A program made the position numbers and the translations under genes. This document shows, piece by piece, positions 8,301 through 52,100 of a stretch of 64,000 nt of DNA. How positions within the stretch are numbered: the stretch's first letter is position 1; every line of letters begins with the position of its first letter. Under the pieces are notes generated by a model. It saw nothing but the letters and a program-made list of their open reading frames with translations. It did no database searches and had not been told where the DNA came from. Source of the stretch: Imbricaverruca yamaguchii (Eukaryota; Arthropoda; Thecostraca; Neoverrucidae); assembly GCA_034440575.1 (NCBI GenBank), contig JAOTOL010001199.1:302143-366142 (forward strand), in the 5' to 3' direction.

Positions 8301-11300
8301 TCACGGAAAGAACACTTAATTTGTTGCGTCTAATTTTACTGTGGCATCCGCTTCCTAGGTGCCTCCTATGTACTCCAAATGGTCCTGTAGCCGGTGTGCC
8401 CTTAAGCCCAAATAACGAACTAAGTGCCTCCCAGTATTCACCATGCTGCTCCACCTGGCTTTCCGAGTGCTGAACGTGATCATTGACGGCATGTGTACAC
8501 TCGTTTCAGGTCGAATTTTCCACGACAAGTCGTTGCCGCCGCCTGCCCGAGTTCACCTTCTGAACCTGCTGTCCGTGGCCACGCTGAGGGACGACTTCAT
8601 TCTCATCCTACACCAGGTCAGGTCAGCTCAGAGATGACGTCATGTGTGCGGCGATATTGAGGGGATTTCAATCTCGTCCTATCCAACCCGGCAACCGATC
8701 CAGGAATTTCGATCGAGTGGCGGTGCACTCGTCGGAGGGAGCACCATCTACCATTTGCACCGATGTCAAGGGGATGCAGGGGACGAGTAGCCTAGGGGTA
8801 AGTTGCTCGTCTCGCAATCGAAAGGTTGTGGGTTCGAATCTCACCTGTCGCTACTCTTCGCCGGCGACCAATCTGCGTGAGAGATTGGCGACGCGACATG
8901 ACTCAACGGTCGACGTGTCGTAAAACCAATAGCCAACCAATCAAGGGGATGCACTGGAATGTCCCTGGAGGGGCGCCTTTTCTGCTCAGAGGGCGCCTTC
9001 GGACAAGTTCAAGGGATGTGCACTGACGCTTCGTCGTTCCCCGTAGGGCGGGCGCTAAATGACCAAACCTGGTCGATGCGCCCTAAAACTCAAATAACCA
9101 ACCGACCGTTCCTCGCAGGGGCTCCGTGTTCCCGTCAGGACGTCCGTGTGACACCTAACGGAAAACCAACAGTTTAACCCTGCGTCCGTGTGACCGCCGT
9201 GTGTCGCTGTGCCGCCAGGACCGCCGGGAGCACGTTGTGATGAACTACGCCGACGACGTAGACCGGCTACCCGCCGACGAGCAGGCGGCCCTCTCCCTGA
9301 TGGTGAGTGTGGCGACCCTCTCCCTGATGGTGAGTGTGGCGACCCTCTCCCTGATGGTGAGTGTGGCGACCGCCGGCCCTCTCCCTGATGGTGAGTGTGG
9401 CGACCCTCTCCCTGGTGGTGAGTGTGGCGACCCTCTCCCTGATGGTGAGTGTGGCGACCGCGCCCTCTCCCTGATGGTGAGTGTGGCGACCCTGTGGTGG
9501 TGTGGCGACCTCTCCCTGATGGTGAGTGTGGCGACCGCCGGCCCTCTCCCTGATGGTGAGTGTGGCGACCGGCGGCCCTCTCCCTGATGGTGAGTGTGGC
9601 GACCGCCGGCCCTCTCCCTGATGGTGAGTGTGGCGACCGTCGGCCCTCTCCCTGATGGTGAGTGTGGCGACCGCGGCCCTCTCCCTGATGGTGAGTGTGG
9701 CGACCCGGCCCTCTCCCTGATGGTGAGTGTGGCGACCCTCTCCCTGATGGTGAGTGTGGCGACCGGGCCCTCTCCCTGATGGTGAGTGTGGCGACCCTCT
9801 CCCTGATGGGATGGTGAGTGTGGCGACCCTCTCCCTGATGGTGAGTGTGGCGACCCTCTCCCTGATGGTGAGTGTGGCGACCCTCTCCCTGATGGTGAGT
9901 GTGGCGACCGTCGGCCCTCTCCCTGATGGTGAGTGTGGCGACCGCCGGCCCTCTCCCTGATGGTGAGTGTGGCGACCCTCTCCCTGATGGTGAGTGTGGC
10001 GACCGCCGGCCCTCTCCCTGATGGTGAGTGTGGCGACCGCCGGCCCTCTGCCTGATGGTGAGTGTGGTGAGTGTGGCGACCCTCTCCCTGATGGTGAGTG
10101 TGGCGACCCTCTCCCTGATGGTGAGTGTGGCGACCGGCGGCCCTCTTGATGGTGAGTGGCCCTCTCCCTGATGGTGAGTGTGGCGGCCCTCTCCCTGATG
10201 GTGAGTGTGGCGACCCTCTCCCTGATGGTGAGTGTGGCGACCCTCTCCCTGATGGTGAGTGTGGCGACCGGCGGCCCTCTCCCTGATGGTGAGTGTGGCG
10301 ACCCTCTCCCTGATGGTGAGTGTGGCGACCGGCCCTCTCCCTGATGGTGAGTGTGGCGACCGCCGGCCCTCTCCCTGATGGTGAGTGTGGCGACCGGCGA
10401 CCCTCTCCCTGATGGTGAGTGTGGCGACCCTCTCCCTGATGGTGAGTGTGGCGACCGCCGGCCCTCTCCCTGATGGTGAGTGTGGCGACCTTCCCTGATG
10501 GTGAGTGTGGCGACCGCGCCCCTCTCCTGATGGTGAGTGTGGCGACCCTCTCCCTGATGGTGAGTGTGGCGACCGCCGGCCCTCTCCCTGATGGTGAGTG
10601 TGGCGACCCTCTCCCTGATGGTGAGTGTGGCGACCCTGATGGTGAGTGTGGCGACCCTCCTGATGGGACCTCCTGATGGTGAGTGTGGCGCCCTCTCCCT
10701 GATGGTGAGTGTGGCGACCCTCTCCCTGATGGTGAGTGTGGCGACCCGGCCCCTCTCCCTGATGGTGAGTGTGGCGACCCTCTCCCTGATGGTGAGTGTG
10801 GCGACCCTCTCCCTGATGGTGAGTGTGGCGACCGGCGGCCCTCTCCCTGATGGTGAGTGTGGCGACCGGCGGCCCTCTCCCTGATGGTGAGTGTGGCATA
10901 AAATTGAAGTCAGCGAGTTATCATTTGAATGTTTGCTTTCGTTAAACGCATTGCTCAGGATGAAGGACCACTGTTTAAGTGTGTGGCCTATCAAGAGTGA
11001 GCGATTTCCTGTCACGTCGGTCAGGTGTCACCTCCCCAATTATTCGCAGTGGCGTAACAACTAAGAAATATGTTGAGAAGTGCCGTATGTGTGAGAAAAG
11101 TTTAGTACGTTGTCTACCTCCTGCCTCTGCATCCTATTCTGTTTTTCTGTCGGTTGTTCTACTTGCAGTTCTACTTGTTCTGCCCACCTTTCTACGTTCA
11201 TTTTTACCTACTGTTCTACTGGTTTTACTTATTTTCTACCTGGTGTTGTACCTGCGGTTCTATTTGCTGTCCCATCCGTCATTCTTCCTGTCGTGCCGTC

Positions 11301-49100: not shown

Positions 49101-52100
49101 AGCAGGCGCACCTCTCACCTGGACGGGACCTGCTGAAGAGCAGGTGCACCTCTCACCTGGACGGGACTGCTGAAGAGCAGGTGAGGCAGGGCACCTCTCA
49201 CCTGACGGGACCTGCTGAAGAGCAGGCGCACCTCTCACCTGCACGGGACCTGCTGAAGAGCAGGTGCACCTCTCACCTGCACGGGACCTGCTGAAGAGCA
49301 GGCGCACCTCTCACCTGCACGGGACCTACTGAAGAGCAGGCGCACCTCTCACCTGCACGGGACCTGCTGAAGAGCAGGCGCACCTCTCACCTGTACGGGA
49401 CCTGCTGAAGAGCAGGCGCACCTCCTCACCTGGACGGGACCTGACTGAAGAGCAGGCGCACCTCTCACCTGCACGGGACCTGCTGAAGAGCAGGCGCACC
49501 TCTCACCTGCACGGGACCTACTGAAGAGCAGGCGCACCTCTCACCTGCACGGGACCTGCTGAAGAGCAGGCGCACCTCTCACCTGCACGGGACCTGCTGA
49601 AGAGCAGGCGCACCTCTCACCTGCCCGGGACCTGCTGAAGAGCAGGCGCACCTCTCACCTGCACGGGACCTGCTGAAGAGCAGGCGCACCTCTCACCTGC
49701 ACGGGACCTGCTGAAGAGCAGGCGCACCTCTCACCTGCACGGGACCTACTGAAGAGCAGGCGCACCTCTCACCTGCACGGGACCTGCTGAAGAGCAGGCG
49801 CACCTCTCACCTGCACGGGACCTGCTGAAGAGCAGGCGCACCTCTCACCTGGACGGGAACCTACTGAAGAGCAGGCGCACCTCTCACCTGCACGGGACCT
49901 GCTGAAGAGCAGGCGCACCTCCCTCACTGCGGACCTGCTGAAGAGCAGGCGCACCTCTCACCTGCCCGGGACCTGCTGGAGAGCTGAAGAGCAGGCGCAC
50001 CTCTCACCTGACGGGACCTCTGAAGAGCAGGTGCACCTCTAGCACCTCTCACCTGCCCGGGACCTGGTGAAGAGCAGGCGCACCTCTCACCTGCACGGGA
50101 CCTGCTGAAGAGCAGGTGCACCTCTCACCTGGACGGGACCTGCTGAAGAGCAGGCGCACCTCTCACTGAACCTGCTGAAGAGCAAGTGCACCTCTCACCT
50201 GCACGGGACCTGCTGAAGAGCAGGCGCACCTCTCACCTGCACGGAACCTGCTGAAGAGCAGGCGCACCTCTCACCTGCACGGGACCTACTGAAGAGCAGG
50301 CGCACCTCTCACCTGGACGGGACCTGCTGAAGAGCAGGTGCACCTCTCACCTGCACGGGACCTGCTGAAGAGCAGGCGCACCTCTCACCTGCACGGGACC
50401 TGCTGAAGAGCAGGCGCACCTCTACCTGCGAGAGGGCACCTCTCACCTGCACGGGACCTGCTGAAGAGCAGGCGCACCTCTCACCACGGGACCTACTGAA
50501 GAGAGGAGCAGGCGCACCTCTCACCTGCACGGGACCTGCTGAAGAGCAGGCGCATCTCTCACCTGCACTGGACCTGCTGAAGAGCAGGCGCACCTCTCAC
50601 CTGCACGGGACCTACTGAAGAGCAGGTGCACCTCTCACCTGCACGGGACCTGCTGAAGAGCAGGCGCACCTCTCACCTGCACGGGACCTGCTAAAGAGCA
50701 GGCGACCTCTCACCTGGACGGGATCGCCGGTCAGCGGGTGCGCCACCTCCCTGGCCAGCCGCACCATGTCGATGGCCTGGTTGACCACTCTGGTGGCGTG
50801 GTCGGCGGCGCGGGTCGGGATGCCGCCCACCACCATGTAGGCGTCGCCGATCGTCTCCACCTGGAACGCAGCGGTGGCGGCTAGTGTCTGCGCGCCGCTG
50901 GCGGCGTGGTGTTCCGCTGTCTGCGCCTCGTGTCTGCGCGCCGCTGGCGGCGTGGTGTTCCGCTGTCTGCGCCTCGTGTCTGCGCGCCGCTGGCGGCGTG
51001 CTGTTCCGCTGTCTGCGCCTCGTGTCTGCGCGCCGCTGGCGGCGTGGTGTTCCTCTGTCTGCGCATGCAGTGCCGGCCGGTCAGCTGCACGTCTTCTGGC
51101 GACATTCGGTGCGGCTCTGCCGAGTCCAGGTTCGGGTCTCTGCTGAGTCCAGGTACGGGCTGGGGCGTTGTCTGTCTGCCAGGTGTCGGACTAAGGCGTT
51201 GTCTCTTCGCCGAGTGTCTGACTGAAGTGTTGTCTCTCCGACAAGTGTCTGACTGAAGTGTTGTCTGTCGGCCAAGTCTCTGACTGAAGTGTTGTCTGTC
51301 GGCCAAGTGTCTGACTGAAGCGTTGTCTGTCGGCCAAGTGTCTGACTGAAGTGTTGTCTGTCGGCCAATGCAAATTAAAATCTGGAGACTGGTTAACGCA
51401 GGCTTGAACAGAAAGGTCGCGTTCTATTCAACTATTTTGCCCACTGTCTAACAATTTGTGAGTGAGCCTGGCTGGAACAAACTATCTGTCACATGTTTTC
51501 ATTTAAGTTAATACGTATTATGCAATATATGTGCAAATTTTCCATCATCAGGAAGGGCTGTAGATGAACGGAAATATTTCGATTTAGCTCATGATGTGAT
51601 CACGGCGCAAAGTTCGTTCCGTTTCGGTACCATATCTACCGGAAGTCCCCAATGTGCAGCTTGCACACAACTCCAGTCGGTACTCACCTTATACACTAGG
51701 TTATTTTCTGTTGCGGCGTCAAATCGGGTGTACATCTCGTTCAGCAGCTGCACAATCTGACTGGGCTCACACTTGGAGGCGATCACAGTGAAGGTGACGA
51801 TGTCACTAAACAGAACTGCAATAGGTAGATATCACCTGTCAGCACGTGGCACAACAGAGGCCACGTGTCAAAACGTGGCGCCAGCGGAGGCCACGTGTCA
51901 AAAAGTGGCGTGAACAGACGTTACGTGTCAAAACGTGGCCCAAAAGAGGTCACGTGTCAAAACGTGGCGCCAACGATGGTCACATAACACCGATACACGT
52001 TACGTGTCAACATGTGGCCCACACGTGTCACAAATAACCGACAGAGGCGCATTCAGTTAGCATGCTATTCGCGTCTCTGTGATGATGTAAAACCAGTAGA

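Follow-up and report, generated by a model that had tools for sequence, protein, structure and literature searches.

Tandem arrays over exon edges in three barnacle genes have the anatomy of amphioxus 'mirages'

Background

Why should minisatellites in introns carry, copy after copy, the edge of the exon that they adjoin? The question is raised by a 64,000-nucleotide stretch of the genome of the barnacle Imbricaverruca yamaguchii (contig JAOTOL010001199.1, positions 302,143 to 366,142 of the forward strand; hereafter the window, with positions counted from its first letter), in which arrays of short tandem repeats lie over splice junctions of three unrelated genes, namely a PUL-type gene, a JmjC/Cupin_8 gene and a soluble guanylate cyclase gene. 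We find that the pattern is real and statistically uneven. Below we describe the anatomy of the arrays, weigh how their clustering on exon edges might have come about, and compare them with repeats of similar placement in other organisms.

Array units contain the edges of the adjoining exons

Exons were placed by homology, independently of the repeats, and the resulting models of the three genes comprise 13 donors and 15 acceptors, i.e. 28 splice junctions. Arrays were detected by Tandem Repeats Finder (TRF), and the exon share of a unit was defined as the ungapped match from the junction outwards. In the arrays thus delineated the unit is made up of the end (or start) of a real exon, its splice site and the adjoining stretch of intron, with the array itself occupying the intron side (Table 1). 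Both donor and acceptor sides are hit, on both strands, and 6 of the 13 introns are affected, with copy numbers reaching about 50. The units at junctions are 17-74 bp long; their exon share is 7-46 bases at seven junctions and 2 bases at two others, a span of 2-46 bases without a preferred length. The JmjC gene and the cyclase gene each have one intron with arrays at both ends, the donor array being different from the acceptor array; in the cyclase gene extra copies of the acceptor unit (array 48139-48286) also lie farther upstream, at 154 and 217 bases from the acceptor. Counting mismatches and deletions, the copies diverge from their consensus by 2.3-4.8% in four donor arrays and by 15.9% in the remaining one of the five. 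Copy number is higher in junction arrays than in the others at P = 0.04, a value that we give no weight, as it comes from 8 versus 9 arrays with partly rounded figures.

The units do not form one repeat family. When 10 units were compared over 90 pairings and strands, 17 comparisons reached P <= 0.05 against simple (mononucleotide) shuffles, an excess over chance, and against dinucleotide-preserving shuffles 8 of the 90 did so, where about 4.5 are expected. The longest alignments between units are gapped and G/T-rich, the longest exact shared run is 11 bases among the alignments listed, and every unit matches its own exon edge. A single mobile repeat spreading to splice sites is therefore not supported.

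A further array, lying over the stop codon of the JmjC gene, has the same anatomy as the junction arrays, although the edge concerned is that between coding and non-coding sequence and holds no splice site. This hints that it is the exon edge, rather than the spliceosome, that matters, but a single case proves little.

A first-pass annotation of the window had drawn attention to seven of these arrays, all of which exist close to where it had placed them. Exon bases are clear in five (9303, 34650, 50713, 48033 and 36182), whereas only the 2 bases GT are shared at 39084 and at 2217. Its description of arrays that begin or end exactly at an exon border needs amending, as the five clear ones reach 7-19 bases into the exon, and the range of 17 to 38 bp that it gave for the units is too narrow. 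It had missed the duplication at donor 11923, the cyclase acceptor array at 48188 and the stop-codon array at 40816-40993. Its statements that donors and acceptors of both strands are involved, that no one mobile repeat accounts for the units and that arrays gather on exon edges are borne out by the above comparisons and, within this window, by the counts that follow.

Excess of arrays on exon edges

Two counts were made of the association with junctions. In one, the 20-mer formed by 10 exon and 10 intron bases was scored as repeated if a copy differing at no more than 5 of the 20 positions lay at a distance of 10-200 bp. This was so at 8 of the 28 junctions, comprising 6 of 13 donors (9303, 11923, 34650, 39084, 50713 and 48033) and 2 of 15 acceptors (36182 and 48188); in first-order Markov surrogates a close copy was seen at 0.3% of positions. 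The acceptors 15757 and 17713 match each other with 5 mismatches at a distance of 1956 bp, which we take as chance and which is outside the 200-bp limit.

In the other count only TRF rows with a period of 10 or more were used, and rows separated by no more than 15 bp were merged. Straddling of a junction was observed for 7 of 17 intronic arrays, as against the 0.62-0.63 expected both when each array was placed randomly within its own intron and when one-unit duplications were born at random on non-repeat intron sequence; none of 20,000 draws reached seven straddling arrays under the former null, and P = 5e-6 under the latter. Raising or lowering the TRF score had little effect, with 7/20, 7/18, 7/17, 6/13 and 6/12 arrays straddling at scores of 30, 40, 50, 100 and 150, respectively, and P at most 4e-5. 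The array detected by TRF from 39115 onwards was counted as a repeated donor in the 20-mer test and left out of the straddling count, which is why the latter stands at 7 rather than 8. Neither count includes the acceptor array at 2217, its best 20-mer having 8 mismatches and its intron being without a modelled 5' exon. Two more arrays in the cyclase gene, at 50877-51064 and 51869-51974, stop 16 and 53 intron bases short of an acceptor, respectively, and do not contain it; the first was scored as non-straddling and the second is outside the modelled introns. The surplus of arrays at exon edges relative to random birth is thus real within this window.

A proposed origin for the arrays

In light of their anatomy, we propose as the probable explanation that these arrays are 'mirages', that is, minisatellites that arise where a short stretch is duplicated in tandem and the duplication by chance spans an exon edge. 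After such a duplication the exon-side splice site would stay usable, and the surplus copies would come to lie inside the intron and be spliced out with it. Slippage or unequal exchange could then expand and homogenise the array at little cost, and its outermost copy would meanwhile be held fixed by the constraints of coding and splicing. Such an array would look anchored because the outermost copy is constrained and the surplus copies are confined to the intron. Minisatellites seem to arise and grow at a high rate in the lineage concerned, 31% of intron interior positions in these genes lying in close repeats.

Several points weigh against this reading. The window was picked because of the pattern, a selection of which the P values take no account. 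By base coverage the junctions are not enriched in repeats, at 29% (8/28) versus the above value for intron interiors (5% in exon interiors), and the edge excess depends on counting arrays as events. Coverage is no higher at junctions than in the interiors because a handful of interior stretches are taken up by long arrays; the excess therefore lies in where arrays are born or kept and not in the bases covered. Furthermore, random birth predicts about 0.6 straddling arrays and not 7, and a purely passive model is therefore incomplete; the edge preference may be caused by mutation at exon edges or by better survival of the arrays there. A purely neutral model also fails to predict that the letters of the donor sites change slightly less often than other positions of the unit (P = 0.05-0.06). 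Lastly, it is from the orthologs that we infer the use of the outermost splice site: in all three genes the orthologous proteins join the exons at array-bearing junctions without inserts.

Alternative explanations

The slightly lower rate of change in donor letters bears on the possibility that extra copies are selected as spare splice sites, which would give robust splicing or better recruitment of U1/U2, with junction arrays being kept and others lost. After wrap-around alignment of the copies to their unit, conservation was tested by random rotation within units, using five site definitions. Over five donor arrays the GT is changed or missing in only 4 of 310 letter positions (1/108, 1/20, 1/34, 1/96 and 0/52), and the rate of change relative to the unit average is 0.31 for GT (P = 0.059), 0.46 for GTRAG (P = 0.05) and 0.76 for the wider site from -3 to +6 (P = 0.22). 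However, the wider site thus gives no signal, and neither of the two lower P values survives correction for the five definitions. Of the 30 AG letter positions in the JmjC acceptor array, 12 are altered or lost. When the reading frame is continued beyond the true donor into the array, a stop codon follows after one base in 2 of 5 cases (JmjC donor 34650 and cyclase donor 48033), and the array over the stop codon is left unexplained. Accordingly, we see no good evidence for selection on spare splice sites, as had been entertained in the first-pass annotation; the signal is suggestive only and weak at best, and we regard this explanation as improbable. The repeated donors also speak to the notion that each array is a chain of sites with dual or recursive use, from which splicing would proceed in steps or yield variable exons in the style of human UBC. 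The requisite AG|GT is present in only 2 of 6 repeated donors versus 5 of 7 single donors, and a repeat-encoded insert at these joins is absent from the orthologous proteins. UBC-type dual-specific sites are rejected as a general explanation, and we consider it very improbable that any such chain underlies the arrays.

If the splice signal is set aside, the exon edges of transcribed genes might themselves be preferred for tandem duplication, for example by way of transcription- or chromatin-linked breaks or the exon/intron step in G+C. Such a mutational hotspot is consistent with the straddling of 7 of 17 intronic arrays, with the presence of arrays on both donor and acceptor sides and with the hit on the stop-codon edge, but breakage is without direct evidence, the exon share is not centred at one distance, and the argument is drawn from one window; we view the hotspot as possible though doubtful. 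Coincidence, whereby some arrays in minisatellite-rich introns simply touch exons, would accord with the choice of the window for its pattern and with intron interiors lying in close repeats as often as junctions. It is at odds with straddling arrays being about ten times as many as expected from random birth, an excess that holds from TRF score 30 to 150, and we consider it marginally less probable than selection for spare sites.

Whatever the balance among these alternatives, arrays in which a real junction is copied dozens of times constitute natural experiments in splice-site choice, setting many near-identical donors against one true donor, and they bear on the old question of how introns grow and new splice sites originate. 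The finding of an amphioxus-type pattern, and a dense one, in a crustacean suggests something more than a chordate oddity. Moreover, length variants may be plentiful, given the extreme nucleotide diversity described for Balanus improvisus in the accessible text on that species (about 20% at fourfold sites; PMC8270832). As a tentative extension, it is conceivable that in hyper-variable animals tandem duplications are preferentially born or kept at exon edges genome-wide, that this evolved independently in cephalochordates and barnacles, and that introns are thereby lengthened from their ends while gaining a reserve of functional splice sites for the recruitment of new exons or introns.

Host genes and other features of the window

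Table 1. Positions of the arrays at exon edges and of exons in the three host genes
Feature	Coordinates	Strand	Description
Acceptor array, PUL-type gene, acceptor 2217	2146..2218	+	21-bp unit carrying ttgacag|gt; 2 exon bases only
Donor array, PUL-type gene, donor 9303	9284..10897	+	27-bp basic unit and longer variants, ~46-54 copies; 19 exon and 8 intron bases
Duplication at next PUL-type donor, 11923	11911..11945	+	17 bp, 2 copies; 12 exon and 5 intron bases
Donor array, JmjC gene, donor 34650	34632..34957	+	31-bp unit, ~10.6 copies; 14 exon bases
Acceptor array, JmjC gene, acceptor 36182 (same intron as donor 34650 array)	35562..36188	+	42-bp unit, ~15 copies; 7 exon bases
Donor array, JmjC gene, donor 39084	39084..39623 (TRF row 39115-39623)	+	31-bp unit, ~17 copies; 2 exon bases (GT)
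Array over JmjC stop codon	40816..40993	+	80-bp unit, ~2.2 copies (TRF); begins in last coding bases, repeats into 3' flank
Donor array, cyclase gene, donor 50713	48889..50723	-	38-bp unit, ~48 copies; strict match to 10 exon bases
Acceptor array, cyclase gene, acceptor 48188 (other end of donor 50713 intron)	48139..48286	-	74-bp unit; 46 exon bases
Donor array, cyclase gene, donor 48033 (next intron)	47213..48051	-	32-bp unit, ~26 copies; 18 exon bases
PUL-type gene exon, first in window, acceptor 2217	2217..2361	+	Placed by protein alignment
PUL-type gene exon, donor 9303 repeated	9219..9302	+	Placed by homology
JmjC/Cupin_8 exon 1	34060..34649	+	Placed by homology
JmjC exon 2	36182..36317	+	Placed by homology
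JmjC exon 3	38954..39083	+	Placed by homology
JmjC last exon, with stop codon	40761..40846	+	Placed by homology
Guanylate cyclase exon (LFSDIVTF...NLVYK)	51688..51815	-	Placed by homology
Guanylate cyclase exon (VETIGDAY...GDPVQ)	50714..50860	-	Placed by homology
Guanylate cyclase exon (IRVGVHTG...GQCK)	48034..48188	-	Placed by homology
Guanylate cyclase last exon	45894..46110	-	Placed by homology

The exon models are in agreement with the proteins of relatives. The four exons of the JmjC gene yield a single open frame of 313 amino acids, recognized as Cupin_8 by Pfam, whose top relative is from Amphibalanus amphitrite (60% identity over 98%; the runner-up has 49%). Its three joins are crossed ungapped by Amphibalanus and four other rows of the alignment, with the Amphibalanus ortholog reading through WYIGW|SNCDPRV. 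A tRNA-Trp gene (67.6 bits, Rfam) is situated antisense within the second intron of this gene (37389-37461, minus strand). The cyclase is soluble guanylate cyclase beta-2-like, and its top relative is from Pollicipes pollicipes (72% over 100%, 326 bits versus 224 for the next); two of its joins agree with PDB 3et6 and all three with the Pollicipes guanylate cyclase beta-2-like protein.

For the PUL-type gene itself Pfam gives no match, and its relatives include proteins named PUL-domain and PPPDE. Its joins agree with three near relatives, 80-84% identical, which come from transcript-like contigs of 1.1-2.1 kb. The exception is the surroundings of a 57-bp exon (14941-14997) that is absent from these three and present in P0124 and P0127. 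Across 12867-14997 the sequence KE-VKTV-VFDD is found in the relatives P0121-P0123 and P0163, consistent with a donor located 12 bases farther on (after GTAAAAACCGTG) and with skipping of the 57-bp exon; these readings would fit alternative splicing of this part of the gene.

Elsewhere in the window, a reverse transcriptase fragment (RVT_1, E 3.6e-17; 28615-29094, minus strand), the sole match when five open frames from 22.9-29.6 kb were scanned, is probably a decayed retroelement. Two tRNA matches barely above the Rfam cut-off of 29, at 8786-8846 (+; 29.2 bits) and 43454-43514 (-; 29.7 bits), look like a family of tRNA-derived short interspersed nuclear elements, and by eye this sequence recurs in the window. 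The window begins (1-287) with AACC repeated about 72 times, which may represent a contig end within simple sequence.

Relationship to known systems

The first-pass annotation knew of no named system with this pattern. One does exist in the 'mirages' of amphioxus, which, in the available text of the papers that describe them, are tandem repeats spanning exon/intron boundaries at both 5' and 3' ends, with units of 10-160 bp, in the genes for Adh3, troponin C, the globins BflGb6 and BflGb9, and PGBD5 (PMC3087553, PMC3902484). The same text reports regular mRNA splicing together with length variation (PMC3087553, PMC3902484), and for the PGBD5 and troponin C mirages splicing is said to be undisturbed (PMC3902484). 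As portrayed there, mirages share with the barnacle arrays the junction-spanning units, the involvement of both sides of the boundary, the occurrence in unrelated genes and an overlapping range of unit lengths. The defining anatomy, a unit that holds the exon edge, the splice site and the adjoining intron, with donor and acceptor sides both affected, is found in the window. The cephalochordate host is not, the closest relatives of the JmjC and cyclase proteins being from the barnacles Amphibalanus and Pollicipes, respectively. However, 'mirage' is the name of an anatomy, and the barnacle host limits common descent and not likeness. The barnacle arrays further differ in reaching about 50 copies, as against the 6 and 3 given in that text for two BflGb6 haplotypes, in occupying both ends of two introns and in including an array over a stop codon.

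In the accessible parts of the open-licence literature, junction-spanning repeats were found for amphioxus and, in general terms, for human paralogs, and none were found for barnacles. The portions of the barnacle genome papers available to us do not use 'tandem', 'satellite' or 'minisatellite' in the sense of junction arrays ('satellite' being unchecked in one of them), and 'splice' is not mentioned in the available portion of a Daphnia repeat survey. In Caenorhabditis elegans intronic minisatellites have been linked to alternative splicing, with no mention of junction-spanning units in the text available (PMC4039745).

Other systems are similar in part, as far as the available text of their descriptions goes. 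Human genes in segmental duplications have internal tandem repeats, with units of about 30 bp on average and about 4 repeats, and where these are variable and lie at an exon-intron boundary they may form novel introns (PMC2812944). Minisatellites are thus possible at such boundaries in both cases, but the human repeats are tied to recent paralogs with new introns and altered transcripts, whereas the barnacle arrays sit on introns whose positions are supported by the proteins of relatives. Human UBC and VCX3A (PMC10809524) resemble the barnacle genes in that splice signals are repeated with the tandem unit; theirs, however, is a coding repeat in which AGGT acts as both donor and acceptor, while in the barnacle the surplus copies are intronic and 4 of 6 repeated donors are without AGGT. 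Intron gain by tandem duplication, as in the potato RdRp gene (PMC4974935) and in Drosophila (PMC2891723), likewise involves a short duplication that copies splice signals, but it creates a new intron within an exon, in contrast to the homology-supported introns with arrays at their edges seen here. The kind of pattern is accordingly already known from the amphioxus mirages, and what is new is the barnacle host, the density of 6 in 13 introns, the copy numbers of about 50, the occupation of both ends of two introns and the array over a stop codon.

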